DNA of 64,000 bases from the NCBI RefSeq assembly GCF_027943255.1, contig NC_072893.1, forward strand, positions 31,084,001-31,148,000, written 5' to 3'. The position numbers were made by a program, and so were the translations under genes. Below are positions 3,585 through 50,400 of this stretch, one piece after another. Origin of the DNA: Anastrepha obliqua. Taxonomy: Eukaryota > Arthropoda > Insecta > Diptera > Tephritidae. Within the stretch, counting starts at the first letter, position 1; each line of letters begins with the position of its first letter. The notes below the pieces were generated by a model. It ran no database searches. It was not told the origin of the DNA and worked only from the letters and a program-made list of their open reading frames with translations.

Positions 3585-4568
3585 AGTTTATGGAGATGCT
3601 GCTTTAAGTGAAACAACGTGCCGAGATTGGTTCCGTCGCTTCAAAGACGGTGATTTTAATGTTGACTACCGTCCGCGTGAAGGAAGGTCAGAAACCTTCG
3701 AAGACGCTGAATCGGAGTCATTGCTCATTGAGGATCCGTGGTAACCACAAGAAGAGTTTGCTTCAGTATTAGGAGTTACCCGCCAATCTATTTCCAAGCG
3801 ATTGCATGCTTTGGGAATGTCTCAGAAACAGGGGACTTGGGTTCCTTATCAGTTAAAATCAGGGGATGTTGAACATCGTTTTTTCGACGTGTCGACTGTG
3901 AACAACTGCTCCAGCGGCAAAAAAGGAAGGCCTTTTTTCATCGCATCGTGACGTGTGATGAAAAATGGATTCATTACAGCAATCCAAAGAAAAGAAAGTC
4001 ATGGGGACTGCCTGGTCATGATTCTACGTCGTCGCCTCGGCCGAATATTCACGCTTCGAAGGTTATGCTATGTATTTAGTGGGACCAAGTTGGTGTTATT
4101 TATTATGAACTGTTAAAACCAAGCGAAAGTATCACTGGGGATCAGTATCGACTTCAATTGATGCGAATGAGCTGAGCACTGCGCGAGAAGCGGCCGCAAT
4201 ACGCGGAGAGGCATGAAAAAGTGATTCTACAGCATGACGACGCTCGGCCTCACGTTGCCAAATCCGTTAAAACCTATCTGGAAACACTGAAAGGGGAAAT
4301 CCTACCCCACCCGCCATATTCTCCAGATATTGTGCAGTCTGATCATCACCTCCGCAGTTCCATTCATATGAAGACATCAAAAAATGGCTTGATCCGTGGA
4401 TGGCCTCAAAAGATGAACAGTTTTACCACGACGGTTTACGCGATCTACCAGAAAGATGGGAAAAAGTAGTAGCCAGCGATGGGCAATACTTTCTATGATT
4501 CCGTTGTAACCATTTTTTTAGAATAAACTTGTATTTTCATCAAAAAAAAACTGCAGTTGCGCACCTAA
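3585..4568 (+). mobile_element. Mariner (mellifera/capitata-like), 5' truncated
   Basis: Starts abruptly inside the transposase (VYGDAALSETTCRDWFRRF), then VTRQSISKRLHALGM, HDDARPHVAKSVKTYLETL (4236-4292) and PHPPYSPDIVQSDHH. The 3' inverted repeat ends gttgcgcacctaa at 4568. Same family as the copy at 55513-56733. Multiple stops: not active. Confidence 0.85.
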
Positions 4569-7044: not shown

Positions 7045-10000
7045 AATGGCCAAAAAAATTTAAAAATGTACTTTCAAAATGTTTCTGGATTGAGAACTAA
7101 ATCTAATCAACTTTTAGCGTTTAGTTCGCACATGGACTATGATATTTTTGTTCTCATCGAGACATGGTTAAATGAGAACTTTTTCGATAATGAGTTTTTT
7201 GATCCAAATTTATACCATGTCTATCGTAAAGACCGTGATGTCGAGAAAACTGGTCTCTGCAGAGGTGGAGGGGTTTTAATAGCTGTTCAACGGAAGCATA
7301 GCTCATCACTAGTATCTCTGAAAAACAATGATACACTCCTGGATCAGCTGTGTGTCTCTGTGCATGGTGCTTCAAATATATTGATTTGTGCGTCATATAT
7401 TCCTCCGTCAAGTATTGATACACTGTATAAAGCACATGTGGATAATGTTTTAGCTCTAACCTCAAATAACGGCAACTTTTGTGTTCTTGGGGACTTCAAT
7501 CTGAGTAATATTGAATGGTCTAGTTTAGATGATAGTACTGCATTATGTCCAAACAATGTTAGTAGTATATCTGAAATTTATTTGATTGATAATTTTTTAA
7601 GTTTTGGACTGGTTCAGATAAATAATTTCTCAAATAGTCTTTCACGAATTCTCGATCTCATTTTCATAAATGACAATATAAATTTTTCTTTATTTGAATG
7701 TGTAGACCCTCTGTCTACTCCTGGTCTGCATCATGTACCACTTGTCCTTCATTTAGAATTCTATGAGTTTAATGATTTTTATTCTGAGAATGTGACTACC
7801 AATTTTTGTTTTAAAAACTTTGATTTTAATATAATTAATTCAGCAGTTGATATTATAGATTGGGATTCTTTATTTACTGGGGTTGAAGTTGCCAATTGTT
7901 ATGATATTTTCAAGCATAATATAAATGATATCTGTAAAAATAATATACCAGTGATAAATAGGACTAGTTATGGAGTACCGTGGCATACCAAGGAACTGAG
8001 AAAACTAAAAAATTTGAGAAACAAATATTTCAAAAAGTTTAAGTTTTCTCATTCCATCACAGATAAAGATAAATATCTACATTTCTCTAGAGAACTTAAA
8101 TCTTTGGATAGGGACTTAAAGCGAAATTATATTCTCAAGTTCGAATCGGACATTAAATTAAATCCTAGTTCCTTCTGGCGTTATGTTAGATCTAGGAAAT
8201 CTTGCTCAAGCATTCCTTCAGTTGTCTTCTATAACGAAACTCAAGCACATACTTCTACAGATGCAGCCAATCTTTTCGCAGATTTTTTTTGTTCAAATTT
8301 TCAAGTAGACTCTGATTTGATTGATGAGTTTCATTCGAGCATGAATTCCTCAATCAATATTGGCTCTTTAACTTTTACGCCTTCTGATATCGAAGATGGA
8401 ATTCGGCAACTCAAAACATCAACAAAATCTGATGTAGATGGGCTATCTTCGTATCTTCTTAAAAACTGCTCTGCAATTGCCTATCCACTTTTGTTAATGT
8501 TTAACAAATCCCTTGATCGTGGAGAATTCATAGATGCCTGGAAAGTAACAACCATTAATCCAGTATTCAAAAGTGGAAATAAAAACAATATTGCTAATTA
8601 TAGACCAATTGCCAAATTATCCACGGTTTCAAAATTATTTGAATTAATAGTGAAAGATAAAATCTATTTCGTAGTTATAACGACTAACTAATTTCAGTAG
8701 ACCAACACGGCTTCATGAAAGGTAGATCTACTGTTTCAAATCTTGCTGTGTTCTCTGAATACTGTATATCATCGTTTAAAAAAAAACTCAAGTTGATGCT
8801 GTTTACACAGACTTTTCAAAAGCATTTGATAAGGTTAATCACAGGGTTTTAATTTCCAAATTGAGTGCTATAGGATTCCACTCCACTATTTTAAAATGGA
8901 TTAAATCCTATCTCTCCTCTCGGAAATGTGTTGTTAATGTTGATGGTGCGTCATCTATTTCTTTTATTGCGTCCTCTGGTGTTCCTCAGGGAAGTATACT
9001 GGGTCCCTTACTTTTTATACTTTTTATTAATGACATTTCTAGTTGTTTTAATAATGCAAATTTTCTCTTGTATGCCGATGATTTAAAGATATACTCGAGG
9101 ATTGCAAGTACAGTGGACTCTTTAAACCTTCAATCTGATCTAGATAACGTTGATTCTTGGTGTAAAAGAAATAAGTTAGATTTAAATATAAGCAAGTGTT
9201 TTTATATTTCTTATTCTAAATCTTGTTCTCTTATACCCACTTCCTACCACATTTATGGTTCTAGCTTATCTCATCGAAGTGAAATTACTGATCTTGGTGT
9301 GGTATTTGATTCCAAATTCTCTTTTCAAAAACATTTAAATCACACTATTTCAAAGTCTTATTCCGTACTTGCCTTTATTCGACGTTTTAGTTCAGACTTT
9401 GTTGATCCATATACTCTAAAGTTGTTGTATACGTCTCTGGTGCGTTCCAAGTTGGAATATGCTGCCTTTATTTGGAGACCATATTATGCTTGTCATATTA
9501 GTAGGCTTGAACGTGTCCAGAAAGCTTTTGTGCGTTATGCATTGCGTTCATTAAATTTCACTGATCCAATTCCATCCTATAAAAGTCGGTGCTTGCTTAT
9601 AAATCTAAAATCACTAGATATTAGAAGGACTATTCTCTCCATTACTTTCCTCTTCGATTTGATAAATGGGGTTATTGACTCCCCATCGCTACTCGAGAAA
9701 ATCTATTTCAATATTCCTCAGCGAAGTTTACGGAATCATGATTTTTTCTGGTTAGGGATGGCAAGAACTAATTATGCTTCCAATGCTCCGATTTCTAGAA
9801 CTCTGGGTGATTTTAATTCGCTTTCAAATCAGTCTGGCCTTGATTTCTGTTCCACAAAGAATCACTTCAAATTGGTTCTAAATGAATTGTTGAACTAAAT
9901 TCTTAGTATTAATCTAATCTTCTTCTGTAAATCTTAAAAAATGTATTCTTTTTCTTTCACTTTGAAACTAGTTAATTATAAGTTTAATTTTACTTTGATT

Positions 10001-20400: not shown

Positions 20401-23400
20401 TCGCCACTGCAAAATCCTAACACACTTTTAAAACAGCTTTCACGCGCGGAGCGATGTTGAGTGCACCGCTGTTGCCAGCGAACTGGAACCGGTTTCTAGT
20501 GGAAGGGGAAGGTCCAACGATAATTTTCCCCCACCAATCGAACCGGTTGAACGTTCCGCGCGGCAAGGCTCATTACTTTTCAATCAAACCCTGTATTATA
20601 TGTATGTGCATTTATACATATATACCGTTATAGTTACATATTTTATTTAAAAAAAATTCTCTTCTCTTCATCTACACAGACTGCCAATTGTTGTTGCGCG
20701 AAGTGACCAGAGGATCATTGGATTATACAGCACTTCCATTGTACAGCATCGATTGCACCGTACATTTTCCTCCATATCGGCTCTTCGAGACTGACAACCC
20801 ATCAACCCCTCCAAATCTCGAAAAGGGCGACATCCCACCGGCGGGTATACTCGTTGAACTGCAGCGCCTGAATGTGCCATGCAACAGTGGCGGATTTATA
20901 CGTTTCAACGACGGTTCGCGTTTGTGTGGCAAACTTGAAGAGCTGAATGCCGTCGATCGCAGTTATCATTTCGATGTGCGCAGCCGCACCACAGTACACT
21001 TCCACAAAAGTCCGATGTTCAGTCTCAGCTATAAGCTGGTTGATTACTGCTACAATGTGACGACAAGCAATCAGTCCGATGAATATTATGTGCGTCCAAG
21101 CATACGCAATGCGCTCGAGTGCTACTTTCGTATTCACCTGCCGTATGGAAATCGCATAAGCCTGACACTCGTGACCAACAATGACAGCGCCATACTGCAG
21201 CCAACCGATGGCATTCAATTAAATGCTGCTGGCGAACAGGACACTTTCAATATCTACACCAGTCAAGGCGTACAAATCGACACCCAACGCATAAATATGA
21301 CCGTAAAAAGCAGCAGTGGGAGCAGCAAAAAAAAATCCGGCACAACTTCAAGCGTGTACAAGCGTGCTGAGCCCAAGGCGGCGGCGCGAACTGATACGTG
21401 GAGCGCGCACAATCAGACGCGAGAGCATATTAACAAGCGCTCTACGAGTTCCTTGGATGGGTTTCTAAAGCTCATGGAAAACCAAGTAAAGGACTTTAAC
21501 TTCGGCGCGGGTGGCAAATCTATGCCGCCAGTGAAAGATTTTAGCAGCTGTGATGGCGTTATAATTAAGATATTCGAGAGCGATTCCATTCGCTGGTCAT
21601 ACTGTATAAACGATGTCAATCGCATGCGTGCTTTCATTCTAATCTCAACTGGTAATACGTTGAATATACATCTGTTCAAGGCCTCACATTTGCACTATAA
21701 CTCCATACCTCTAACGAATGGCCAGATTTCCGGTGTCGATCCCAATACGCCCCTTACAACACTGCCCACGATTTACTTATCCTATGCGGCGCTACCCATT
21801 CCCGAAGTCGTTGCCAGCTGCGAATTCGGTTGGGTTGCTATGCAGCAGTTTTGTATAACTGCGATAGAAATGGCCATGTCATGGCCAGATGCTGAAGAGT
21901 ACTGTGTGAATTTGGGCGGACATTTAGCTTCCATTCGCAATGAGCAACAACAACAAGTAGTCAATGAGCTACTTTTCCATAGTCCAGGCTATGGAGATCA
22001 AAACGCCTATTGGGTAGGCGGCTCGGATAGCAACTATGAAGGAGACTTTCGCTGGAGCGATGGACTGCTATTTCAGTACACAAGTAAGTTATAAAGTTAA
22101 AGTTATGCGTAGTATTGCACAATTTAGGTATGTGGGTGGGTGAAATGGTTGAAGTACCACTGTAGCACTCCTCAAGTAGCACTAAAGGGCCATTTTGATA
22201 GACCTCCAACGGGCAGATATCTACAGCCCCAGTCAAAGCTGTTGATGCAATGGAGAAGATTGATGTAATTGAGTTTGGCGCACTGCCCTAGGCTGTCGAA
22301 GAAAGGAGCGCCCAGTGACCCTAATCGTCTCGCTGCCAAATCCGGACATTTGCAGAAAAAGTGCTCAACAGTCTCCTTCTCCGAAAGGTTCGCACAGCTT
22401 CTGCAAGGAGGGTTAAATGGTAAATCTAGCTTTTTCGCATGTGTGCCGATCATCCAATGACCGGAAAATACAGCTACGAGTCTGGAAATTGAATGGCGCG
22501 GAGCTCGAAAGACTTTCTTAGTCCTCCGTCTATTGAACTAAGACCAACAGATCTTCAGAACAACACATGAAGAAATGGAACTTCATCTTTTCTGCGCATT
22601 CTTTAGAAATAAATTGTGCAATTCCCCTTCAATAAAAGTCAGGGGGATACCGATGACCGGGTAGGAGTTCTCTTAGACCAATTCAGTCGACTCCTGACTG
22701 TCAAGCTCATCAACTCATCATTTCCCTCTATGTTCCTATGTTTCGGAACCCATATCAGAGAAATGTTACCTGCACACCCAAGAGATTTGATCTCCTCATT
22801 ACAGGTGTTGACAAGTTTGGATCTGCACCATGGCGTCGTCAGAGTCTTAATCCCGGCATGACTATCGAAAAAAATTTTAATATCTCTCTCGATTCCGGGT
22901 TACCTTTGCATGCCTGTAGGGTCGCAAAGGTTTCTGCTTAAAAAACGCTAGTAGTATTTAAGGAAATAGATAAATTGCCTCATTTAGAGAAACCCCTGTT
23001 CTGGCTTCCAATTCCTTCGTGGAGCCGTCGGTGCAGTCAAAGGTCCCAACTTCGATGCAGATTTAATTTATAGAGCCCTTAAAAATTTTGAGCACAAGCA
23101 CTTAGCACTTCATAGATCAGCCATCATTCCAACAACATCATCTCTTGGAATGCTTTGAGCTTCTAATTTTTTTTCAGTTATTAGAGCTCATATTTAAATA
23201 TCTACGAGTATAAAATAAAATTTAGTCTAGATACGTAAATATTCAAGCTACTACGTTAGCCTTGAAGTCGTCGGATCAGCGTATTGCGTACTTCTCTTTG
23301 GCAGTTAAACTCCTAATCCGCAAATCGCGATGGTTGATCTTTGAGAGATGGAGATGAGAACGAACCGACTCCTACCAGACTGAGACTGTAGTCTCCACTG

Positions 23401-26400
23401 AGCCAAGATTTAACCACCACGATAGCTGTAAAACATGTCGAGGGAAACCTTAGCAGAAGGAAACTTTATCAACAGAGTATCCCTGCAATTATAACACTGG
23501 ACTCCTTCATGTTAGATTCCTTCTAAACTTGCGCTGTACTATCCAGATGATAGAGCAGACTTCATCTCATTTTGATTTATTTAGCACAAAATGTATAAAA
23601 CCCTTATCTCAAATTGTGTGAGGCTCACCAAGATTCCAAGAAATTAAACTGACACTTAGAAATCCACTTTGAGCCAGTGGAAGATAGGACTAAAACATAG
23701 TATGTGAGATCTCAAAGCGAACAAGGTTGAAGCGGAAGATGTGTACTCCCTGAAGGAGAATAAACATCTACTAACATCGAAGTCCTTATAAGGCAACATG
23801 AAGAACGCGCCTACGTTTTCAAATGTGGCGCAGAAGTATTTAGAATGAAAAAGTGCCATGGTAGAAGGGAGCACCTCCCTTATATTCTCTTATTGAGGTA
23901 GCTTAAAACTATGGTAATTAAGTGCCCTCGGTATAAGGGAGCACCTAAGTTATATTCTCTGTTTAAAACTAATTATGTGGTTGGTTTAGCAAGGGGAGCT
24001 AGTAATCCAAAGCTAATTTCTAGATCGTTGATATCGGAAGATCTAAACTATCTCTATCTGTGCGCTTCTACAAGTCACTAATCACTCATTGCATTCTTCT
24101 TCCCTTGCTTCATTCGAAAAGACTGGTTTCCAGGATGGACGGAACACAGCCACTACAATAAGCAGCCCAATGATGATGGTCTCAGCAGCCAGGACTGCAT
24201 AGAATTGCGGCGCTTTTTTCGCACACCGCCGGGTATACAAACGAATCGAAGTCCACTAACGAGCACTTTCATGTGGAATGATCGCGATTGCAGTGCGAAA
24301 AGCTTCGTGATATGCGAGCGAGCGATGAGCGATGGTAAGTTGATAAATGCGTGAGAGAGATTAGTGTTAAAGATCCGAGAAAAGAGGTAACGGAATTTGG
24401 AAAATGCAAAGAAATTTTGTATTGGAATAATAAAAAAAGAACAAAGTCAGTGTCAAACAAAAAAAAAGTTCGATAATTGCCAGAACGATAGAATACAAGA
24501 TTGTGCTTATCAGGGAGGCGTGACCTAACACTGCACACTGGTTGCGCTTATATGGGGCTGGTGGCCAAAAATACTTCCCGTAAAGATAGAGAGCTGAAAT
24601 TTTTTTCTGGGTATTAGAGATGAATTTAGATAGCTTACAGTAAATATTTGTGAAAGAGAAACTCCCGGACCCCCCCTGCGCTCCAGCAATAAATAATTTA
24701 AAAAATTCGCGATTCCATTTTTTCAATCATATATAACAGCAAATATTATTTAATTATAAGATAATAAAAATGATGAAAATTAAAGATGAATAATAAACAA
24801 AGTTAACATACGTCATCCAATAAATCATATGTAGATGATAAAAAAGTGGATTTCTGATTCTTTGGCAGATTTCTTTGACCTGTTATAAAAGGGTCTGATT
24901 TCAAAAGAAGCATTTTAATTAAATCTGTATTTGTCAGTATACGAGACATCTTCCTAGTGTGCTGCAGCCGGCACTTTTTTATTTCTTTATTGTTTGACTC
25001 TGCAGCTTCCTCTGAGAGCTCTCCAATCGAAACCAAAGCGTGCTCTATAACCTTTGGTGCATGAATTAAAATTTTATGCACTGTTGCTGGAAGGTAGTAC
25101 CATGGATACATTTCAATTAATTTATTCGCTGTATCTAGTGCGAATTTTTCGAATTTTTTTATATTTATTTTGTATCCTGATGCTAAGGCTTGCAGTATCG
25201 TAGCGCATCGGGCAATAACTTCTTCATCAATACCTGTAATCTGAGATGCTAAGCTTGGGTTACTGAAAAATTTTCTGGCAGTATTGCCATCGTTGGAGTT
25301 TCCTCTACCTCCATCCTTTGGCGTATCGACCAGTAACCCCATTTTCTCTCGAAACTCCGCTTGAATTTGATGTTTTTTCTTTAATACAATAGACTTGAGT
25401 TCTCCCGATCGTACTTGCCAAAGCTTTACATCCAGCTTGTACGAAATGTGCAAGAAATATTCGAAGAACCGGATATATGAATGAAGTGGTGATAGCCCAA
25501 ATTCAAAATACTTTTCTTGCACATCTCTTCCAACACATTCTTCAATATTATTCATTTCTGTAGGCTTTGCTCCACATATAAAGCATTTCATCGAGGACGT
25601 GTTGCTTAACGCGTTGCAAACTTTACCATCCACCATGGTTAATTGAAGGGCGTGCTTTATAGAAAGTGTTGTATTGCAAATTTTGTGCTCTGTTGTCTTC
25701 AAGTTAGCTATTTTCTCCTTGAAGTAGAGCTCTTCTTCGACGGAAAGTGCGGCGGTCTCCTTTTTAAATTGAAGCCTGAGTGGCCTACAATATCGGGTAG
25801 ACGATAGCCTGGGAGTTTTCCATATTACTTTAGAGTCGGTTACAAGCTGAAGTGGGACGTACGATGTGACAAATAAACTTTTCTCGTCATTAATACAATT
25901 GGAAAACTTTTGTTTATATTCGCTGTGGCCAGTGCTGCCATCGAATCCCCATTTTCCAATTAATGTTAGAGTTTTTTCAGTTTCATCCAAACGTTCTTCA
26001 ATTAAACTCTTTTGAAGCTCTAAAATACTTGAAGCCGTGTTGTCTAAAAGGCTTTGTAGTTCCACTTCTGCATGTGTTTCGTCTACAACAATATTATTTG
26101 GATATCTCAATGTTTTGAACTTAAGAATTTTTTCGTATCTTGGCAATAAGTTATAGGAAACTTCTGAATTTATAAATGATCTAATGACCAAGTATTGGTG
26201 TTTGGACAACCCAATGTCGACGACAAGCGACAAGACCTTTTCAATATTTATTTCAGTTGCATTAAGGCTTGGCTGAGAATCAGATGAGCGCAAAACAGAA
26301 GCTGCAGACTCATCATGCTTTTGTAGTAGGGCTATTCGGCGACGTTTCGTCCTTTTTGAGGACTCAACAAAATCCATTTTGGGCCGTCCACGACTAGAAC

Positions 26401-29400
26401 TCAGATCAATTTGTTGAGCACTACCAGTAGGCTTCAGGACAATAAATTCTTTAGTTTTTAGCCATTCAGATTGGTATTGTACAACTAAACTTCTAATTAT
26501 TTTGTACTGAATCCAGAAGGCAAATATCTTTTTGCAAATGTACTGAATACATTTCTTAAGGTCAATCGTATTGACTTCGTAGCCTTTGCTTTTTATGTTT
26601 AGTGCCAGTAAATTATTTATGCCTTGCATTTTTTCGGCATTCGTGCCTTTTTCTTTGCACCAAAGATCAAAAATGTGGATGCGTGAAAACACACAGTTAT
26701 AAGATGCTCCTATACAAAGAAAATAAAATGTGCAAAGCAAACATAAATTAGTACAGTAAATTTAATGTAAGAAAAGGTACAAAACAAACGACGAAAACGA
26801 AAACGAAACCAACAACACAAAGATCAACTGATAACGGTGGATATTTGTCCCATGAAAATAAATAAGACCACTTTAGTTTATTTATGAGTATAAGGTAATT
26901 AGCAACTTTTAGCAACTAAACTTTTCATGATTATTACCTTAAAACATTGACAAATACAGTGATGACACTCTCAATGGGGGCATCCGGGGGCAACACAACT
27001 AAAACTTTTAGTAAACATAAAAAAGACGTACACAAAATGCACAAAAAAGGTTAAGACGTTCAAAATCACACCAAAATGTTTGAATTGATAAAATAACCTT
27101 TAAATAAACATTTATTAAAGTAAATACCTTCAATTACAAAATCCATTTTAAATTATTAATATCGGACCACTTTGTCAAACGTTTGATCACTTTGAAGTAC
27201 GAATTCGCAATGACAAAGTACAAACAAAGCTCAGACGGGCTGCAAAAATGTACACAAGTTCATTCTTTCATTGCTATTTTTAAAAAGTTCCGTTAGATTT
27301 GCGGAAAAACCGGTTTGGCATTTTGAAGATTGAATATTTTAGTGTCAATTTGTGTTCGTTTTGTCCAACTATTTTGTGATGAAATTTTTGATTTTTGGCC
27401 TATGGACGCAACCAGTGTGCACTGGCGCAGTTGCGTGAGAGTAATATGAAAATCCAAACAAGAATGGACGAAGAAGAAGAACTTAACCAAACAGCACACG
27501 ATGATTGGTTGAAGCCAATTGCGGTATAATAACAAAAAACTGAGATTGTGTTGGTGATAAACGAAAAAAATCAACCAATGACAAATCCTTGCCGTGTGAA
27601 CAACGACGATTGGACCAGTGGGTGAATACATGCGAAATTAGCGGGCTGAAATATACTGCCGAGTACCCGATGACGTGACAGCCGAAGTTTACTTGCTCAA
27701 TTTCGTTTTTCACTATAGCCGAATGACAAACAACTTGGTAATCTATCATTCTTGGGAGATATCAACTATATTGATTTTTTTTCTATAAAAAGTCTCGATA
27801 ATTGCGGCCTACGATTTTCTTTTAAACAATTACAATGAAAAGAACTTAATTAATTTAATAATTAATTTTGAAGATTAATATATATATATATTTTTTGATA
27901 CTGTTATCATTATTTATTAATCTTAATACTAACTAAAGGGTGTTTTTTTTAGAGGTTAGGTTTTCAAGATGAAATAAAACGTATATAATTTTATGTTATG
28001 GCCAAGAATTTAGCTTTATTATAAAGATAAGGGTTTGCCATTATGTTTTAAAAATGATTTCGGGCAAGTGGCCGCCCCGGCTGGCTCGAATAAATTCCAG
28101 CCGAGAGGCCCAATTTTCGACCACTTTTTGCAGCAATTGGGGCCGTATGTCAGCAATAACGCGCCGAATATTCTCTTCCAAGACGTCAATCGTCTCGGGC
28201 TTATCTGCGTAGAAAAGCGACTTCACATAGCCCCACAAAAAATAGTCCAGCGGTGCTATATCGCACGATCTTGGAGGCCACGCCACAGGTCCACGACGCG
28301 AGATAATGCGCTCACCAAAAGTTTCCTTCAATAAATCGATTGTTGCGTTGGCTGTATGGCATGCACCGCCGTCTTGTGGGAACCAAAGGTCGTCCACATC
28401 AACATCGTCCAATTCAGGCACGAAAAAGTCATTAATCATGGCTCTATAGCGCTCTCCATTGACTGTAACATTATGGCCGGTTTCATTTTTAAAGAAATAT
28501 GGACCAATGATTCCCTTTGCCCATAGAGCACACCAAACAGTGACTTTTTGAGGATGTAACGGCGTCTCAGCAATGGCTTGTGGATTATGTTCACTCCAAA
28601 TGCGACAATTTTGGTTATTGACATACCCAACCAAAAGTGAGCTTCATCGCTGAACAAAATTTTCTTGTGATGCGTAGCGCGAACCGAACCATTATATTCG
28701 TAATAAATTTGCACGATTTGCAAACGTTGTTCAGGTGTAAGTCTATCCATTATGAAATGGCAAACCAAACTGAGCATAAATCAAGTGACAGCTGTCAAAA
28801 AGACCATCTACGAAAAAAGTAGTGCCAACTTGAAAACCTAACTTCTAAAAAAAACATCCTTTATAAGGTTTCAACTCTTAACCTAAATTATAGTACCTAC
28901 AGCTGCTTGAAGAAGTTTAAGGTTATTATGGGGGTCTCAAGTATGCGTTACAGGATTGGAAGGTCAATTCTTCTGAGACCTGACGAATTGACGGTATGCA
29001 ACAGCGACCGAGCCAATGGATTTGGATGATGTCCCAGCCTTTGGTAGTAGTTTTGTTGGATTACTGCTATTTCTGCTGCCACTAATGGAACATTTAGGTC
29101 TCGATGGATATTTTCATTGGTTATGTATCACGACGCTCCAGTGAACATTCTGAATATTTTAGATTGTTTTCGTTGTATAATTGCAATATTGCTGGCACTT
29201 GCATTACCCGACATTTGTGACGCATACGTCCAGATTGGCTTGATGATTGTATTGTAGAGAAGGCCTTTGTGATCAAGGCTAAACCCGGAACGGGAATTGA
29301 TTAGCCAATGAAGATCTTTCGTTTTTAGCTTCATCTGTCCACTTTTGGCCTAAATGTGCCTTTTCCATGTCAGGCGCCTGCCCATACGAAGATTTGTAAT

Positions 29401-32400
29401 TTCTTTAGAATGAGGTATGAGTGTGGAGTTTAGATATACACTGGAATTGTCGCTTCTATTTAGCGTGAAAGTCACATGCCTACAATTTTTCTCATTCACG
29501 TTGATGCGCCAGTCTGCCAACAACTTTACTATGAGTTTCAGATGTCTGTTTAGTTCGCCCGTAGTGTTATTGGACACTCGGAGCGACAAAGGATTGCAGT
29601 GTCGTCAGCAAACGTGGATGTAATTATTGGCGGGTTTGTTAGATGGTCAGCTGTGAATATTACATATCAAAGCGGAACCAGTACACTGCCTTGTGGTACG
29701 CCGGTTTTAACATCGACTTCATCAGTTAGGTAGTTTTTATATCTTACCATAAACACCCGAAGATTCTAATATTTGGTGTGAGCTTTGAGGCAGTGTACGT
29801 TGGATTTTGTAGACAAGTCCTTATCGAACGCTTGAGCTACCATCAAGAAATATGAGCAATATTCCCGTCGTTCAAAAGCATTCCTTATTTTGGAGCTGAT
29901 GCGATTGACTTGCTCAATTGTGCCGTGTTTCTGACGAAAACCGAACTGATGAACTGGAATAATGTTGTTTTGCTGCAGATGCGGCATTAGTTTTCGTTTC
30001 AGCAACTTTTCAAATAATTTGGAGAGAGATGGTAGCAGACTTATAGAAGTCTATGAAGCTCCCTTGGCTTTATTTACCATTATAATGGTCGATGTTTTCC
30101 ATTGAGGAGGAAAGTATCCAACTTGAAGAATAGCGCATTAAAAAGCACACTGAGAAATCTAACAGCGCCGTTTTGGAGCCTCTACTATGTTTTCAGTAGA
30201 TATTTGATCATACCCAGGTGTATTTTTAGAATTCATCTCGTTCTCAATTATTGACTTTAGTTCATGCGGAGAAATTTTTATTGCATTGTTATTATATTCA
30301 AGTGGTGATGAAGACTCACTACCAAATTTCGTCAAATCGGTTTGAGTTGTATTAGTTGGTGGGTTGGGTTGAACCACCATCTTCAAATGCTCAGCAAACA
30401 CATTGGTTGTTTCTGCATCTATCCGAGCCCCGGCGCCTTGATCGTCACGAATTGGTTCCTCAGATTCAGTTAGTGGGCTCAATTTGTGTGCCTTCCATAA
30501 GGGCAGATTAGCTCCCGTTGGCGATAGGTTTTGTATTAAACGTTTGTTATTATACTCTTTTTTCGAGTTTAAGCGCTTTTCTTAAAACTTTTTCGGTGTT
30601 TTTGAAACGCACCTTAAATGCAGGAGATCTATACTCTTGCTATTCTCTTCTGTAACTGCGTTTTTCCATAACGAGTCTTTCGGATTCACTATTTGCTATA
30701 TTATGGATTTTTTGTCGAGAGAAACTTGTGCACGATGTGGAGTGTCGCGCAGCAGACATGAGAATTGAGTTAAACATTTCCATCCAGTGGAATATATCAA
30801 TGTCTTCAACTGTATTTATTTGAGGGTTAGTTGCAATATGTGCGCTTATGTATTTTTTAAATTTTAACTAATTGGTGTTGGACGAAGTAAGTTTGTATGG
30901 GGGATCGGTAAACTGCGGTTCATCCATAACTACGAAACTCCCAGGGAGGGATCCGATGATAAGTCTGTGTTAGTATCAGCTGTAACTATATTTCTGGGAA
31001 GTCTTCTAGTGATACCGAAATCTATTAGGTTTACTAGGCTTTTACTTAATCATTTTAAGGGAAACTCCCTTAAATTAGAAAATACAAACTAAAATACTAC
31101 ATTTATTGACACATACTTTGTTTTAATGGTAGACATTTGTAGGGGTTGCCCTTTATATTTTACACTCTTGCATTCTACATGTGACGAGCTGTGTAATTCC
31201 ATATCTTTATCAAAAAATTTAGTATTGGGCTATGTTGAAAAATAAACAAACAAAAATTTCTTAAAAAATAGTGTCTTCATTTCTAACACGGGTACTTATT
31301 GAACCCCCTCGTAATTAAAAATTTGTATAAGTAACTTCAAGTTGTTGTCATCAATCATTTTAAGTAACTCAGCTGGTGGTAACTCGTGAGGTCCCGTCGC
31401 CTTGTTATTTTCAAACGACTGAATAGCTTTTCTTATTTCTGCTACAGTTACAGGTAGGCCCGTGCATTCCTGATGATATGATAAGTTTCAGGTCGGATGT
31501 CAGTTAACAAATTACGTATAAATTTATAGAAGAGAATGCAGAAGTGTATTGGCTTTCAAAAAGAATATTTTGAAAAACAATAAAGCCACTCCCATTATTA
31601 TTTTACTGTATTTTCATTATTGGACACGAACTATAAAGGCAACCTTCTAAATTTTTTTATAATTTAAGGGGTTAGGGGTAGTCAGAGACCCGAAAAAATC
31701 ATGATTTTCAATAAAACGTTTTGCTAGTCAGTTGCTTTATTTTACTAAAATAAAAACATAGTATTAATACCTTAAGTTTCGACTTGACTTCAGCGAAAGG
31801 TAAAAAAAATTAGTAATTGTAAAAGTTATCGATGTTTGTGCCCGTTTCTCCAGAAGTCTCTTGCAGTGATCATCACAAGTCCCTTGGAGATCCATCTAAA
31901 ATCAATCGGACAAGAGAAATTAGTTTTATTAATAGATAATTTTGTGTCTGATCGAAGCTTTTTTGTCTTGATTTTTTCAAAATTAACAATATGGCGGCCT
32001 CAGGAAATGTTTTTCAGATTTTCGAGAAAAAACTGACAATTAGTTGTTAAAAAAATCGAAATTAAAAAAAAAAAATCGAAATTAAAAAAAAAAAAAAAAA
32101 TTTCGATCAACCACGAGTTTTTTATGTTTTTCAAAAGCAGAATAAATTTTATTGAAATCTACCAAGCGGTTTTTAAGGTACAGTGATCACCAGTTCAAAA
32201 AACATAGTTTTGAGAAAAACGCATTTAAAGTTTTGCTATCGATATCCGGAGCGCCCGAGCGCTCTTTATTAATTGTAGAATAACTCGAAAAGCATTTGCC
32301 GGATTCACTTCAAATTTTCACACAATATTTTTAAGATATTATACTTTAAGAAAATGTGAAAAAACAATCGAATTTTTTCAAAATTTGGGGAGTCAGACCC

Positions 32401-35400
32401 CCTTAATAACTTAAGCCCTTAATAACTTCCAAATGTTGCTTCTTCGTGAAATTTGTCATTATGAAAATGTCAACTATGAATAACGTTTTGACATTGCCCT
32501 ATCTCAATTTCAGCTTTACAAATTTGTTAGTGTTTTTTCGCATATATACATATCTAACATTTCCACCTACAACCCACAGACTCTTTACGCCGCAGCTGGG
32601 TAAACGATTGTAATAAGACTGTCTCGTTGACGAAGGAGCATCCACGTGCCTCAATTTGGAGTCCCTCCTTTCCGCGCCAATATCCTGACAACGCGAATTG
32701 TTTCACGACAATAACAGCGCCCACAGGCTATCGCGTTGTCATCGAATTCGAAGAGCTTGTGATCGAGAATGAAGCGGGGTGAGTATGAGATTTAGAAGAC
32801 ATTTTAATCGTACGCCAATCGCAAATATTACCTTCTCGAAATTTTGCAGTTGTACTTATGACTATTTGGAAATTACCGAACCAACGCACTATGATAACTT
32901 CAAAACTACAAAATCTTCCAAAAACAAAAACACTATAAATATAAATAATAGTAATAAAAGTAATATTAACATAAGTAAAACCTTTCGAAAGCGAAGTTCT
33001 TATGAGAAACCTAGCCTTAGTTCATCGTATACTATGCCTACATCTACATCTACATCTACATTTACATCTAGTAATTCTAATGCCAACGCTTATTCTAATA
33101 CGTATACTAATTATGCCAACACGAATGCTGTAAATAATATAAATATGGATGTGAATGTGAATGCGAATGCAAATGTGAACACGAACGCAAACTACAACAC
33201 CAACACCAACATCAACACCAACTACTTGTATTCGAATAGTTATAACAACTACAATCTCGCGCAAACGAATTACCAGAAGCTGCTGCACATTTTCTCGAGC
33301 CTCTATCGGCCGCATACGAATTACCTAATACAGACACCCGACTATCCCCGAGGGAATCCCAACTATCCAGCCAATCATCACAATCGGATGCGCGCCGAAG
33401 GCAACGTGGATACGAACGCATTACCGAAACGTTTATGCGGCGATTGGAGTTCTAAACTGAAACTGCTGCGTCATGTGTCGACTGGCTCTTATTTGGGTTT
33501 GCATTTCGTATCCGACTACTCGCATCACTTTGGCGGTTACAAAGCGAAGACTTATATGGAGAATAGTGAGTATTTTTTAACAACTCTCTTCATTTCATAT
33601 TCCGCATACATACTCGAAATTGCTCATACAACGCCTCATGTCAGCTGCGATGCAATCCATTACACTACTTCGTACATTCTATGCAAAAGTGTAATCGAAA
33701 GTGCATACATTCTAACCACTAAGGGATCTGGAACGTAATTAGTATATTGGTTTATTCAAAAATTGAAGCCAGGAGCTTGGAAGCAATGCTATTAGAAGCG
33801 AAATTATTCTAATATATATATAATATATTTTTTTATTTCTACGAAAAAATTTGGGGACGAATCCTCACACTTCAACCTGAATGGCTATAACTTTTTCTCC
33901 ATGACATTTGTTGATTAGACATTGCCTTTTTTTAGCTTGCAATCTTTACTGCATCTCTCGCCTACATAAAACCAAATGTCAGTTTTCCGGACGACTTCAT
34001 AAACCACGACAACCCAGTGCGCCACAGCGGGTGGTCATCCGCATGGTAAAAGTCGTTGACCGAACAAAATCTGCATGCTGATGCTATGAAACTATGTAAG
34101 GAGAGACTTTATCAGCCTGCCGCGCAATTCTCTAATTATCTTTGAATTGTGGAAAGCAAGTAAAGAGCTACCACTACCGAAATCTAAGAAGCCCGTCAAC
34201 CTAGATAGGCCATATCGCCTATAAGCAGAGCTCTCAAGAGGGAAACCTACCCAAATAAATCATCGCCGAAATCAATTGACTTGAGCGAGCAGTCCTAGGG
34301 GAGCTGAACCTGCCGAAAGCCATCGGTCTTAAACCAATAAGCTTCTAAGAAATTAGTCTGGACAAGGTCGACATACCCATGCCATTGACAACATGTAACC
34401 ATTGCTTTTGCAAATTCCAACTGAAAACTCTAAACCACCTGCGCTATCAGTAGGCAAACGTGGCCCGAATGAAACGTGGGTCACACTAAGAGTCTACTTA
34501 AATTAAGTCGGAAGGATCTAAGAATCGTAGAAAGTGCCCGAACTGGGCACTGTCTAATAGAAAGGCATGCCAGTAGATTAGGGGCACCATCCAATGGCCA
34601 TTGTAGAAGCTCTCAGGATATAGAAAAGGAGGAGGAGGAAAGTCGAACAACTTCTATGCGGGTGCAGGGTTCTGTGTAGAAGACGATTGAGATTGCTCGG
34701 TCTCGCTTTTCTGGGCAACATTGGAGATGATGCGAATCTTAAACTAGCTAGTGTAGCCAGCGTTTTAAGGACCACACAATGGTTTAGAGAGGACCAAGTA
34801 TAGTAAGGAGAATAGTTCCGGTTGTATTGCAAGGGGCTTCTAACTGTCGAAGGACAGCCACTTCACCTAACCCAACCTATACTGAGAAGCTCCCATTAGA
34901 TCACAGCAAGTAAAGGGATCTAGTAGCTGGACACGAAGAACGTAGCTCAAAAACACCGTACTTACTATAGAACAGTCTTGGGGTGTCTTTGATTGTCGCT
35001 TGAAATTCCACAGTGATGTCTTTATTTTCGCGATTATGGAATATAATATAATGCTCACCAGCAGATTTTACTACACCTGCTGGTGGCAAAGTTGGAGACA
35101 ATCTAGACAGTCAAAAGTTACCTTCTTGAACTAAAATACAGGTCTCAGCAGTAGCCAAATGCGGCAATCGACGAACAAACACTACCTATCGTGGCCGTGT
35201 AATGGAGGAGAGAAAAGATAAACTGCCTTAGTCTAAGCGCCTAGCGCGAAAACCCGGACATTTGCAAATAAAATGTCAACAGTCTGTTTCTCTGCGAGAT
35301 CCCCACTACCAATGCAATGGGAGTTGTACGGAAATCCAAGTTTCTCCACCAGTGGGCGGAGAATACAGCTATACGCATGAAAATTTTATGGCGGGGATCC

Positions 35401-41400: not shown

Positions 41401-44400
41401 CTAAATGGCATCAGTCATTATCTAGAGAGTGAGTGTCGGCTAAGGAGTACTACAAGTATTATTTATTATTTTTCTTTCCTTTTGCGTTAAGTGTTGCTTT
41501 CTTCGAGACTTCATTTCCAACCACATCCTTAAGCTCGGATCGAATTTACACATTTATTTTGCATATCGTAGTGAGATGTTTGACACTTAAGTATGTCTAA
41601 ATAGGTGTATGTATGTGTAGTTTGTAATTAAAAATACTTTTATGTGTCTCCCCTTACTTAAAACAATGGAATTTTTTGTTAATTCGAGACCCCAAATACC
41701 ACCACAACAGCACAATCCTACGAGCCAGACAAACCTTTGCGTCTTTTATTGGTGCTAAATTTGTGCAGATGTACAGATTTAACAAAACTATATTGCACGT
41801 TTATGAATATTGCCAAACTAGCTGTGCGTGAGTGTACATCATTTGCGTGCCAACTTAAACTCTACTTAAACTGCTGCTGATTTCTTTTTTTTTTTTTTTT
41901 GATTGAGCATTTTGAAAAGCGCAGTGATTTGTGCATTGGATACCCGCAACATTACTCACATTACACTTTCTTCTTTTCTGCAATTCTCCTACTTTTAGCG
42001 GCTTCTGAATGCGCCAACGAACGCTTAAAATACTACAATGGTTCCTGTTATCTGTTCATTTCCTATCCCGAAGTCGATTGGTGGACGGCGCAGCAAGTAT
42101 GTCGTGGCATGGGCGCACGTTTGTCATCGGTGTCGTCCTCTGATGAACACAGGTAAATTTTGAGAATCTCTCACGAAATTCTCTTCGTAGCTACCTTTTC
42201 TATATCTCTCCGCAGATTTATTACATCGAATATACGAAATCAAATTGACTATTCGCCTCAACTGATCTACTGGCTTGGTGCAGAGCTGGAGAAAAGCGGC
42301 CAATTCGAGTGGACAGATGATACAAGAATGAGTTTCCAGGTAATGAGTATTGGGAAGTGGGAATGAAATTTGAGGAGATGGCATTACCCTGCACTGACTT
42401 AGATCTACATTCATGGGATTAGTGACCCTCTGGCCTTGTCGAATTGGAGTTATTTGCCCTTGGTAATAGACACATTGCGGAGAATAACTCTTGCCAACAA
42501 GTGCTACTTTGGACTCAGTAGGCAATTGAGTACTAAAGTCTGCTCTCGACGAACAAAACTAACACTTTATAAGGCTCACGTCATGCCCGACCTAACATAT
42601 GGCGCAGAAGCTTGGACGATGACAATATCCGATAAGGCGTCTTTGGGAGTGTTTGACAGAAAGATTCCGCAGAAGATTTTTGGATTCTTAAACATTGAGC
42701 TGTATGAGCTTTAAGAGGACATAGACATAGCGCAGCGAATAAAGATCCAGCGGCTTCATTTGTTGGGTCATGTCGCTCGAATGGGTACAACCGCTCCATC
42801 TCTGAGAGTGTTCGATGCGGTACCTTCTGGTGGTAGCAGAGGAAAAAAAAGGTCTCCTCTGCGTTAGAAAGATCAGGTCGAGAAAGACTTAGTTATACCT
42901 GGTGTGTCCCACTGGCGACAGTTAGCACGAGGAGGAAATAACTGGTGCGCTTTGTTAAACTCGCGAAAAGTCGGGTAAGCGGTTATCCCACAAATCGAGG
43001 AAAGGAAGAAGTCCAGACTAAGATGTACTGTTCCCACATATTGTGGTCTCTAATTACTGTTGATCTCTTTACCACATTATTTGAGTAAGGTTACGAGGCC
43101 ATAGGCTACGGTGAGGACTTGGTAATCCTTAAGACGGAAAAATTCGACTAAACTGTTTCTTTCGTGATGCGCTCGGTTCCTCTCGTAGTCGCTAAGTGGA
43201 ATAACGTCCACATTAGACAGGCCAACATTAGTCAGCAGGGCCGACACGCAGATTCGCTGATCAAAACCGACTGAGTTCGCATATATCTATTAAGACAGAA
43301 TGCCGTCTATGTCTGAACGACGCCTGAGGGTCGTTTAAATAAAAGTCCTTGCAAAAATAAAAAAAAACTACTTAACTGTTTAGGGTAAACTTTTTTTATA
43401 TTTCGACATTGTATCTTTTTAGGCTAATTCGTCCAACGTTGTTTTAGTTCCTTGATCCTTCCGAATAGGTAAAATTTGAAAAATATCCAATCGTTTCTGT
43501 TATCACCTCCTCGTTTGAATAAAATCCTTTTACCGCCAGACATTTCTTCAAATTGGGGAGCAAATATTAGTCCGAGGGAGCCAAGTCTGGAGAATAGAGG
43601 GATGTGAAACGAGTTGGAAGCCGATTTCCACCAATTTTGCTTCCACATTTGTTTCTGCAATCACCTCCACGTTTAAATAAAATCTTATTCCCGCCAGCCA
43701 TTTCTTCAAATTCGGGAACAAATAGCAGTCCGAGTGATCCAAGTCTGATTGCCAAACACAAAGAAATAGTCTCTGACGTAGACTTGGTGTGTGTTCTTCC
43801 AAGAGATGCTTCTAACTAAACCTAACCCAGATACGCGCTAGTGGTGCCCTCTCTCTGACTTGGCACGGACTTTTCAAACGACCCTCGAACACCAAGAGTT
43901 TACTTTCTCCAACGGCGGCTAGAAAACCAATTTATGCCGCCAATAAAAAAACACATCCGCCTAGAGTTCTTCATAGTGTTGAAAATAGATATCAAACTCA
44001 TCAGAATAGCAGAAAAAAAGTAGAGAAAAATATTGCGAAGTCATTGTCTGTTGTCATTCGCTCTATTCTTCCTACACTGGTAGATATGCGTATGCACTGA
44101 TTTCGATCTACTCTTTTCTCTTGTAGGGTTGGTTGCCTGGCCAAGGACAATTCGAGGAACTCCCCCCAGATGCCATCTGTTTGGGGCTGCAATGGAAGAT
44201 GTCACCAACGCCAATGCTGCCTTCGGGTTTGTATTGGCAATCACAAAAATGCAGTAAAGTCGGTGGATATGTATGTAAAAAACCAAAAGATTCATTTGGC
44301 ACATTTTCCGCCAACAACCTAACAGTTACAGGTGCCGAGGGAAGGCTAGTGTCACCAGGTAAGCTATTTAATTTAATAAAAGAAAGTCGGCTCGGAAATA

Positions 44401-47400
44401 TAGCTATTAAAAATTTTAAATATTGCCGAGAAAACTAGTTTTTGTAGAACTTATTGAACTCGTAAGGGACGTTTGCTGTATTGCTAATTATTAAGAAATC
44501 TGCTTCCACCATTTACGAAATGTTTATCTTTTTAATCCGTTTTAAAAAGCCTACCCCAACACATATCCCCTAAATATGGACTATTGGGTGCATATAAAAA
44601 CACCAGATCGTACCCGCATAATACTTCAATTCCAAAAAATAGATCTTGAGCCACAGGATGAGTGTCTCTATGATTTTGTCAGCATACAAGACTTCGAATT
44701 AGTCTCGCACATAACACTGGAGCCTGGAAGCAATCCCCAACCCATGGCCATGTTAACTTCTGAAGAGCAACTATCGTCGACGGACAATGAAGTGGACATA
44801 GGTGAGTTCGCATCGGAATACCGTAAACGACCGAAACGTAGTCTGCAAAGAGGTCTACGTATACCGAAAAAGCGGGGGAGCTACCCAAACGTCAACACTG
44901 CCAAAAATGAATACAGGTACACAAAGCAAACTCATAGTAGGAAAACTTTAAATCGGAAGCACGAAGGCGCTAGAAAAACGCACAGTGGCAATCTACGATT
45001 TAGAAGAGAAGTGCTTACAAAAACCGGGCATAGTGGTAATAAGTGGATTTCCACTGCAGCTGGCGTCGTAACGAAATATCAAAATCCCAAACATCGTCGA
45101 CGAAAAGCCAAGGCACATCGCCGCAAACGCAATAGTATTTTAGAGGAGGCTGACCAACTGATGTTGCCCCTTCCAGTAGATAATGCACAATCATTCCTGC
45201 CATATGTACGTTGGTGTGGCACACACACCGCCAATATGTCCAAATTCGACTTTGTTTCCAATTCAAATGAGGCAATGGTGAATTTTCACAGTGATTACTC
45301 CGTTAATGGTGCGGGATTCGCGGCCACTTGGAGAGCGATCGATATATCTGGCTGTCCGCTACAGACGCTCACTTCACGTGAGGGCACCGTCTTCAGTCCC
45401 AACTATCCACATTTTTTACTACATAACTTGAACTGTGCTTACGTGATACAAGCGCCAGCTGGCAGACGCATTTGGCTCGAATTCAATGAGTTCGATTTGA
45501 ATGTGGACGCAGTTTTGGAAGTGGACATTGGTAGCGGACCACTACGGCCCTTTCGCACCAAAGAAATATTGAGCGAGGGTATATTCGTTAGCGAGCGTGA
45601 ACAATTGCGCATACAATTTCGCACAGGACAGCATCCGAGAGGCAAAGGCTTCCAAGCTGTCTATCGCACAGGTGAGAAAATAGAGATTTACTTATATTTA
45701 TGTATGTAGAACCTTTTTGAGAGTTTGCATATTGCGCATAATCGTTACAGTGACACCATTGGAGCGACGTGAGCGGGTCATCAGTTTGAACTACAACAGC
45801 AGCGGTCATCTCTACCAACTCAACTACCCACGTGCGATGCCGGAAAATGTGGACTTCACACACCATTTAGTGGCACCGTTCGGTCAGAATATTATGCTCG
45901 AATTGCAAGGCGTTGAATTTAGTGAGAATGGCGATTGTATCGATGGTAGTCTCTTAGAGGTATAAAGCAAACATGAACTCGCCTTGCCATACGAGGTGTG
46001 TTCAAAAATTATCTCGAATTTTTTTGTTTTTTCAAAACTTATTTATTTATGCATTAATATCTATTGTGTCCCCTTCAAAGTAATCCCCATGAGATATTAT
46101 GCACTTGTGCCAACGTTTTTTCCAATCTTCGAAGCACTTCAAAAAATTATTTTTTTATCTTGTTCAGCTCCTCCTTCGATGCCGTTTTTATCTCGTCAAT
46201 CGTAGCGTAGCGTCGTCCTTTCATGGGTCTCCTCAGTTTCGGGAGCAAGAAAAAGTCACAGGGGGCCAGATCTGGGGAATACGGTGGCTGTGGCATCATT
46301 AGTGTGTTGTTTTTGGCAAAAAAGTCGCACACAAACAACGATGTGTAAGCAAGGGCGTGATCGTGATGCAAGAGCAAATTTTTGTTCTTCCTCAAATCCG
46401 GGGATTTCTGGCGGATTGCTTACAGGTAATATTCCTTATTGACCGTTTTACCCTATGGCCAGAACTCATGATGCACAACGTCCCTGCAATCGAAAAAAAA
46501 GGTAATCAAAACTTTTACATTCAACCGATCTTGGCACGCTTTTTTCGGTCAGGGGTTCATGCGGCAGCTTCCATTGAGATGATTGAGGTTTCCACGTCAT
46601 AACCATAAACCCACGATTCGCCACCAGTTATGACCCTCTGGAGCAAATTTGGTTCATCGTGGACAGAGTCCAACATCTCATTAGCAATGTCCATGCTGCT
46701 TTTGGTCGAAAATGAGCAGTTTTGGTACGAATTTTGCGGCGATCCGTTTCATTCCCAAATCATTGAGAAAAATCGAATGGCACGAGCCAATCGATATGTC
46801 TAGGTCCTCAGCAACTTCTCTAACGGCCCATATCATTTTCTTCACTTCATCAATTTTTTCATCTGTTGTTGAAGTGGTCGGGCGTCTGGCACGCTTTTCG
46901 TCGTTCACATCTTCTCGGCCTTCTGAGAACATTTTTTACCACCGATAAACGTTGCTTTGGTCCAAAGTAGCTTTTCCGTATGACACAGTCAACATTCGAA
47001 ATGCATCTGCGCACTTAATTTCGTTTTCCACACAAAATTTGATACAGGTTCTTTGACCGATCTTTTTGAATAGGTAAAAATCGAAGATGAGCATTCAAAA
47101 TAGCCGAATTCGTCGGCATGAGTGAGAGACATGAGTACCAACATATCGCCACAAAAAAATCGAAATTCGAATATACGTAATCTGCGAAAATTCAGAATTT
47201 GCGATACTTTTTGAACACACCTCGTAATTCTATAGTACACTAACGAGTTGTTACCATTTGTTCGCATCTTAGGTCTACGACAACTACGCGGACAATAATG
47301 GCACAAAGTGGCAACTTTGCAAGTATCAGCAGCCCACTACTCTTCCACACACCGGCCCACCCAGTTACGATGCGGAGCGCCAGAGTTCATCGTACGGTTA

Positions 47401-50400
47401 CTTACATCCGCAGGACACATTTTATACACACGACCGTTCAAGGTCAATGCCATCCATGTCAAGTAGTAGTAGACTTCAAACTAGAACAGTCGATGCCACA
47501 GCGCCACCAGTGTATATTACATCCTATCTAAATACGCTGCACATCCGCCAACGCACAGGCCTCCACTCGAATGCCCTACTAAATGCAACCGTGTCAATAC
47601 AATGGGGTGAGTTGAATAGATTTCGAGGAGCTAATTTAGTTTCTAATTTGTCACTGTAAACAGATAATACCTATAAAATGAAATTGGCTGCTGGTGAAAA
47701 AACCGTTGAATCCTGCCAACCCAATCCCTGTCAGTTCAATGGCAAATGCGTACCCAATAACGGTACGAACTATTGCCAGTGTAAGGGACACTACACGGGG
47801 AGGTAAGAAAACGCGAAATATAGTAACTTCTTCATTTTACACAATCCATATTATTCTACTTTACTTTTGAACAGATTTTGCGGCCTGAATATTTGCGAAC
47901 TGGAGCCCTGTGTCTTTGGCAGATGCGAGCTGACTGCAAATAGCTTTAAGGTAGGTTCAAAGTACGACTAATCTTTTTCTTTCATTTCAAAGTATTTCCA
48001 ACCTCCATCACTTCCTTGAAATAGTGTCAATGTCAGCCGGGTTACATGGGTCCAACATGCGAGCAAAAACAAAGGCCTTGTGCCGAAAACCCTTGCGAAG
48101 GACGTGGCGTTTGTTTCGAGCGAAATGGAGGCTACTTTTGTCGGTGAGTATTTTTACAAAACATTGCCAATAATACGACACAAGGAGGCATACTGTACAT
48201 TAGAGCGCCTCGTAAAAAAATTTTGTGACCAAATATTTCACCGCTTCTTGACCATTTATCGATTAGTAAAAATTGCGATGTGAATAATGCTTGTTGAAAT
48301 TAGGCTTACTAGGCCGAGAAGGGGAGCAGAAGCACTTTAATCGGGATGTACCCTATGGAAAGCATAATTGTGGTAAAAATGTGTATAATTTGCTGTGGGA
48401 AACTTACCATATTAGAGAACTATCCCTTAGATAGACATCCGAAAAGACTAAGTCAATTACAGAAATTAAATACCTAAAAATGTTGTTTAACTTAATTTAA
48501 CGGAGTACACTGACCTTTTTTTGTGAGAGGGGACGATAAAAATGTCAGAAACATTCAATTGATGCAGTCTCGCTCCCACTAAAGCAGACCTCCCCTCTTC
48601 GGATGACTTCCACCCCAGGACCGCATTTGCACTACATCGAGGGTGGAGCCGTGATTGTGGATAACAACCACAAAAGAAACCTGCATCCAGGCTCTCTACG
48701 TACGACGTATGAAGGTTATGCGTCGGTGATAGTCTCCATTACTCCATTAAGAAGTAAATGGAACTTCGAAAGTGTGCTGTAATGTCGTGTGCATTACTGC
48801 CTTGTCTGCGTATGATATGGTCGTGAGTCATTAACTTAAGCGTCCGTAATTGTTCTCGGTATGTCTGAGGCGACCTCCTCTGGAACATTGTTTCATGTTA
48901 GCTTTAGCACTTGTCGGGAAGTTCAGTTTGATCAGATGCGGCACCGGGCGTTAACATTATTTTGCTCTAGCTGCCGGTACTGAAACAGCTCTATTGTTCG
49001 CCTTTCTTCGTCCTGCTTGTGTAGCGTACGCAATACTACACTGACCTTTGGGCGCTGGCTGAATCACCACTTCAACCAACACTGACCTTAGGTAGGTTCC
49101 AGGACACAGGAAAATCGGGGGAAATGAAATTGTTAATGAGCTTGCCAGGAACGGGACTGGATTGATATCAGAGAACTCCTACTCGGTCATCGGCATCGCC
49201 CTGACTGTTGTTAAAGGAAATTTGCACGACTCATTTCTCAGGAAAGCGCAGAAAAGATGGAGCTCCATTTCTTCATGTGCGATTTCGAAAACTTTTTGGC
49301 TCTAGTGCAATAGACGGAGGACTCAGAAAGTCCTGACGACTCCACGCCATTTAATTCCCAATTCTCGTAGCTGTATTTACCGGTTTTTGGATGATCGGTA
49401 GACACGCGAAAAAGCAAGGTTTACCATTTAACCTTCATGGCAGAAGCTGTGGGGACTTTTCAAAGAGTGAGACTATTGAGCACTTTCGGTGTAAATGTCC
49501 CGATTTGGCAGCCAGACGATTAAGGTTGCTGGGCGCTCCTTTCTTCGTCAGTCTGGGTCAGTGCGCCAACTTAAGTCCCATCAATCTTCTCCCTTACATT
49601 AATAGCTCTAGTTGGCTGCAGATATCTGCACCTTGGAGGTCTGAAAATGGTAACAAAACGGAGATTGAGTGCTACTTGGGGAGTACCTAAGTGGTGTTTC
49701 AACCATTTCACCTACCTACACTCACCTTAATAGGTTCAAATTGCTCAAATAACAGTACTTGGACGAACTCCATCAATCGGCAGAGAGCGTTTACTTGATC
49801 TCGTACACTGCTGGCTGTCCTGTAATGGTATCCGGCAAAAGCATTGCTGATTTAAGTCTAAAAGTAAAAGGTTATCTGTCCGAACTTTCTCGCTTCATAA
49901 CTGCCATTAGGAGCCACGCTCTTCTACTATATTCACAACCTCCTTATTTACGACAAGAGTGAAAAAGGAAAGCTCTTGACTATAAATTCCTCCATTTTGG
50001 CTCTTCTTATTTTCGACCAACAAGAAAGTCTTTAAATCGGTAACCGCCTACACATGGGGCAAGAACTTAAAGGGATAAGATAGAAGACGATAAGTTGGTG
50101 CGTTTCGATATAGGCAGCCTCAGCCTACTAACTGGAGACTGACAGTGAATGAGGTTTCACACCACCCCTGAAAAAAATCTCAACTCAACTCAACTTCATA
50201 GTGGGCTTTATGCTGCCAGTCCGAAGTGCTCAGTAGGAGCAGCCCTACCCAAGTTGGAGCTTGGGCTTTGGTGAAATCTACTACCCAAGTTTCATAAGAA
50301 AAATGCGCTGCAATTGCAGTTTCTTGTCTTTAAATATTCTTCGTATATACCCAAAAATTTTATATTCAATATTCTGTTAATCTCCATAGTTGTCACGCTT

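Follow-up and report, generated by a model that had tools for sequence, protein, structure and literature searches.

The element, its ends and its gene

The DNA analyzed here is a 64,000-nucleotide stretch of Anastrepha obliqua contig NC_072893.1 (hereafter, the window), and it contains, at 24534-27419, a 2886-bp segment that an earlier note had read as an apparently intact Transib transposon lying in a fly intron. Transibs are regarded as kin of the ancestor of RAG1, the enzyme that shuffles antibody genes; those whose ends are whole and whose frame is open make useful test material for transposase action. Our analysis points with high confidence to a Transib DNA transposon, structurally complete and with a single gene, that inserted in antisense orientation into an intron of a fly CUB/C-type-lectin gene; once spliced, the transposon's gene would encode a RAG1-like DDE transposase. 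The coordinates given earlier proved exact, and the features are the following:

24529 to 24533, no strand: left copy of the target-site duplication (TSD), CACTG, 5 bp
24534 to 24546, + strand: left terminal inverted repeat (TIR), CACACTGGTTGCG, the element's 3' end relative to its own gene; heptamer at 24534-24540; 13-bp identity to the right TIR
27407 to 27419, - strand: right TIR, reverse complement of CACACTGGTTGCG, the element's 5' end relative to its own gene; heptamer at 27413-27419
27420 to 27424, no strand: right copy of the TSD, CACTG, 5 bp
27146 to 27128, - strand: predicted transposase exon 1, 19 nt, ATGGATTTTGTAATTGAAG, encoding MDFVIE+G, with the ATG at 27146
26710 to 27127, - strand: predicted transposase intron, 418 bp, GT..AG
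26709 to 24803, - strand: transposase exon 2, including the stop; holds D263, D367, C382, C385, H551, H556 and E577 (numbering of the spliced protein)

The sequence CACACTGGTTGCG was found at both termini in inverted order, with 13 of 13 bp identical between the ends, and both repeats begin with the heptamer CACACTG, which has the CAC start of the Transib superfamily. The heptamer ends had been described as exact; they are indeed identical to each other, but differ at one base from the vertebrate recombination signal sequence (RSS) heptamer, CACAGTG. The perfect CACTG duplication was also observed as claimed, and 5 bp is the predominant TSD length of Transibs in the available excerpt of PMC7204232. 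When perfect 13-mer inverted pairs spaced 1-6 kb were collected from the window, 33 were found (overlapping pairs counted separately), and since just one of them, the Transib element's own, carries identical 5-bp flanks, the paired ends and their duplication are not a product of chance.

The gene between these ends had been described as two exons encoding 641 residues without stop or frameshift, and this was confirmed when the frames were joined: the spliced frame comprises 641 residues and one stop, which is terminal. The splice 27128/26709 is predicted, and 26709 was the sole acceptor among four positions tried that yielded an open frame. Some support for this putative border came from a comparison of 59 relatives' N-termini, where the predicted proteins P0001, P0006, P0012 and P0039 extend upstream beyond the exon 2 start, and P0001 reads IGASQKCVF at the border region where EGASYNCVF stands here. 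We infer that the gene is spliced and expressed.

Next, the protein was examined for its family and fold. The five motifs of the RAG1/Transib core that the earlier note had pointed out (KWGFDGS, MVDGK, C-x2-C, H-x4-H and AESNNK) are all present, in the expected order. The transposase HzTransib matched residues 162-641 of the unspliced open reading frame (ORF), and the predicted fold matched the HzTransib and RAG1 structures. In agreement with a Transib encoding a RAG1-like transposase, the protein is thus related to both and carries the DDE triad and the ZnC2/ZnH2 residues. The 96 N-terminal residues encoded by exon 2 (26420-26707, - strand), ahead of a basic RGRP stretch, were modeled as a confident helical domain with a predicted local distance difference test score (pLDDT) of 94.0. 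HzTransib aligns from model residue 150 onward, and this N-terminal domain falls outside the alignment. Solved structures gave no clear match to it, from which fold novelty does not follow.

By analogy with HzTransib and RAG, as described in excerpts of PMC6941560 and PMC11844651, the transposase would pair both element ends and nick next to each CAC heptamer, hairpins would form on the flanking DNA, and the element would be pasted into its target with a 5-bp stagger, which would generate the CACTG duplication. The present copy, or near copies of it, probably moved recently.

Intactness, relatives and alternative readings

To place the transposase among its kin, a tree of 46 rows was built with the query and 45 of its 120 listed relatives. 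The query fell in a five-row clade with P0001, P0002, P0003 and Drosophila yakuba LOC120322169 (support 100/99), enclosed in a twelve-row group with D. ananassae LOC123257406 (support 100/100), and the D. yakuba and D. ananassae proteins are the nearest named kin in the tree. These five relatives, all within the twelve-row group, are 59-62% identical to the query. Because 62% is the highest identity to any listed relative, we take this element to be a separate Transib family, as judged by protein comparison. DNA of the relatives was also sought for a comparison of ends, but none of the pattern-matching stretches retrieved from a viral contig collection (28 and 118) or a genome contig collection (43) was confirmed.

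The description of the element as apparently intact holds for its reading frame and its ends. In a decay model in which 4.7% of substitutions, as computed, create a stop and frameshifts are assumed to occur at 9% of the substitution number, the probability of an open frame was 0.27, 0.07 and 0.005 after 0.5, 1 and 2% neutral change, respectively. Long neutral decay is therefore unlikely. At the columns conserved in at least 95% of the relatives, 2 of 74 positions depart from the consensus, E282 and T305; at least two such departures are also found in 30 of the 120 listed relatives, and by this comparison their number is not unusual. Position 282 holds Glu here and in one listed relative, and Asp in the other 119. 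At position 305, Thr stands where Asn is found in 120 of 120, and Leu308 is found in none of the 120 (Pro in 103, Thr in 10, Ser in 4 and Ala in 3). These last two residues, both without precedent among the listed relatives, fall within four positions, and therefore the open frame is not proof of an active enzyme.

It is possible, although we hold this only tentatively, that the copy is young but dead, its frame open and its transposase disabled by missense changes (N305T with the nearby P308L, and D282E), so that movement, if any, would depend solely on enzyme supplied by other copies. The residues at 305 and 308 speak for this reading, and so does the terminal branch of the query, the longest in its five-row clade (0.39 vs 0.15-0.32). 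The low count of departures at conserved columns, matched or exceeded in 30 relatives, argues the other way. Moreover, zebrafish RAG1 and amphioxus RAG1L, in weak alignments, lack Asn at the equivalent of 305, both with Pro at the equivalent of 308, suggesting that this Asn is dispensable somewhere in the wider family.

Besides Thr305 and Leu308, several observations weigh against a complete and functional Transib. The 418-bp intron is a prediction from the sequence. Between the transposase stop and the element end no AATAAA was found, and the only one of the two poly(A)-type hexamers sought that occurs there is an ATTAAA, 49 nt past the stop. A Pfam scan of the transposase returned no family at E 1. 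No second Transib copy or fragment was detected in the window, either by blastn (best match outside the element, E 0.15) or by tblastn at E 0.01, for which the query and its 120 listed relatives served as probes.

A long open frame might also be kept by selection for a host function, as in a domesticated RAG1-like gene, and an excerpt of PMC9885083 describes sea urchin RAG-like genes as domesticated. We consider this very improbable here: the gene is framed by ends and a target duplication that are both perfect, the mark of a mobile insertion, and it lies antisense within an intron of another gene. A RAGL transposon of the ProtoRAG type would share the RAG1-type catalytic core but can for practical purposes be set aside, as the transposase scores 371.7 bits to HzTransib vs 27.6 to amphioxus RAG1L, and the non-gene DNA inside the element (269 and 273 bp) offers little space for a second gene. 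Among the five ORFs of at least 60 aa listed around the element, the transposase is the only one contained in it completely; of the other four, three extend across an end and one is outside. No RAG2-like or other second gene was found as an ORF of this size wholly inside the element, genes spliced from smaller pieces not being sought; what is present is the single protein of a Transib and not the RAG1L-RAG2L pair of a RAGL (ProtoRAG) element.

The host gene and its surroundings

The Transib transposon lies between colinear exons of a lectin gene, whose coding stretches around the insertion are as follows:

20640 to 22085, + strand: upstream host lectin (CTLD) coding stretch; limits taken from the combined matches to several lectin proteins
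24109 to 24334 (start approximate), + strand: host exon directly upstream of the insertion; donor GATG/GTAAGT at 24335
32580 to 32883, + strand: next host coding stretch, CUB part, after the transposon-bearing intron; candidate acceptor CCCACAG/ACT ending at 32579

Matches to insect lectin proteins follow one another in colinear order along the window, at 20640-22085, 24109-24351, 32567-32883 and 33409-33570, these limits being the union of the matches to P0260 (Lutzomyia longipalpis), P0324 and P0342; P0322, P0323 and P0329 were colinear too, up to 32773. With a donor after 24334 and coding resumed near 32580, in colinearity with single lectin proteins, the placement in an intron stands, and the element starts 199 bp into it, antisense to the host gene. 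Among the best 120 of 216 matches to the lectin stretch, the highest score of a named homologue went to the phorid fly Megaselia abdita, whose protein is 57% identical over 34% of the lectin query. This homologue and the Drosophila transposase kin agree with the fly setting.

The same host intron holds, at 27938-28862, an element that we take to be mariner-like. Its ORF has only 197 aa (- strand, 28041-28634), its inverted ends lie near 27934-27971 and 28826-28863 (92% over 38 bp), and a Pfam search of this element returned no family. At 7066-9898 there is a long interspersed nuclear element (LINE), a retrotransposon without long terminal repeats, that is apparently broken: its endonuclease ORF (7066-8691) stands apart from that of the reverse transcriptase (8861-9898). 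The statement that most other elements in the window are broken was checked for these two, the LINE being split over two ORFs and the mariner-like element being left with the 197-aa ORF. On the + strand, stretches coding for CTLD and CUB lie in similar order at two places, 20640-33570 and 41998-47872, which would fit the duplication of a lectin gene. The window also contains an inverted repeat pair, 3583-4548 and 55539-56461, 85% identical over 974 alignment columns, and a long short-tandem-repeat tract at 51151-52093, in translation an alternation of Arg and Asp on one strand and of Leu and Tyr on the opposite one.

Unequal subterminal words and comparison with known systems

Beyond the 13-bp repeat the two ends of the Transib element diverge, yet both hold the same A-rich word:

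24563 to 24572, + strand: GGCCAAAAAT, left end, 22 nt past the heptamer, element positions 30-39
27391 to 27400, - strand: GGCCAAAAAT, right end, 12 nt past the heptamer, positions 20-29 from that end

Pairs of random window segments shared a word of at least 10 letters in 3, 22 and 43 cases per 5000 for spans to 40, 60 and 100, respectively, and shuffles of the span to 60 did so in 13 of 10,000; the spans were picked after the word was seen, so the larger chance values give the fairer picture. The match to the RSS nonamer, ACAAAAACC, amounts to 7/9 at the right end and 6/9 at the left, with spacers of 14/24 by best nonamer match. It was rejected as evidence; a best score of at least 7/9 was obtained in 1114 of 10,000 random 60-mers.

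In the excerpt available of PMC8289069, Transib families mostly have symmetric ends, and a figure legend in that of PMC8355894 depicts some Transibs with symmetric spacers of 20-22 bp and counts Transib5 of D. melanogaster and Transib2, N1, N2 and N3 of Anopheles gambiae among those of 12/23 asymmetry. The unequal layout found here is uncommon but not new, because symmetric ends prevail while these named Transibs show 12/23 asymmetry. The transposase also has the basic stretch RGRPKMDFVESSKRTKRRR (RGRP), and in the profile comparison this region lines up weakly (11.5 bits, independent E-value 0.62) with GGRPRQHLLSLTRRAQKHR of zebrafish RAG1, the RAG1 nonamer-binding motif. That an RGRP arm reads the A-rich word is put forward as a hypothesis only. 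We regard as unlikely, on present grounds, the fuller proposal of a Transib that is still live and whose signals are bipartite and unequal: a CAC heptamer plus the A-rich word, the latter read by an RGRP-type arm at 12 nt on one end and 22 nt on the other, with unlike ends alone being paired. If true, the element would be a present-day transposon that follows a kind of 12/23 rule and does so in the absence of RAG2. The unequal word spacing and the RGRP stretch, if real, would offer a test object for whether end asymmetry predates RAG2.

The element adds a new member to the Transib superfamily, yet is ordinary by itself. It is less remarkable than the earlier note held, because recently mobile fly Transibs are already known; an excerpt of PMC11656972 places the Transib1 invasion of D. 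melanogaster at about 2013. What deserves further attention is that its ends are spaced unequally, in a 12/22-like manner that recalls antibody gene signals.

Among known systems, the transposase shares 39-40% identity in the core with the HzTransib protein of Helicoverpa zea (PDB 6pqn, 6pqx and others). At 641 residues against the deduced 489 of HzTransib, the protein has about 150 more at its N-terminus, corresponding to the predicted helical domain and the basic RGRP stretch. Vertebrate RAG1, which acts on 12/23 RSS, is 13-18% identical, and RAG2 and coding joints are features of the vertebrate RAG system, whereas the system here is a transposon. Inward of the 13-bp repeat the ends of the element are unequal, in contrast to Hztransib, described in the excerpt of PMC8289069 with symmetric ends and little or no nonamer likeness. 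As compared by description (PMC8355894, excerpt), Transib5 of D. melanogaster and Transib2 and N1-N3 of A. gambiae have unequal, 12/23-like ends; the offset of the A-rich word between the ends is 10 here, not 11, and nonamer likeness alone is not above chance.
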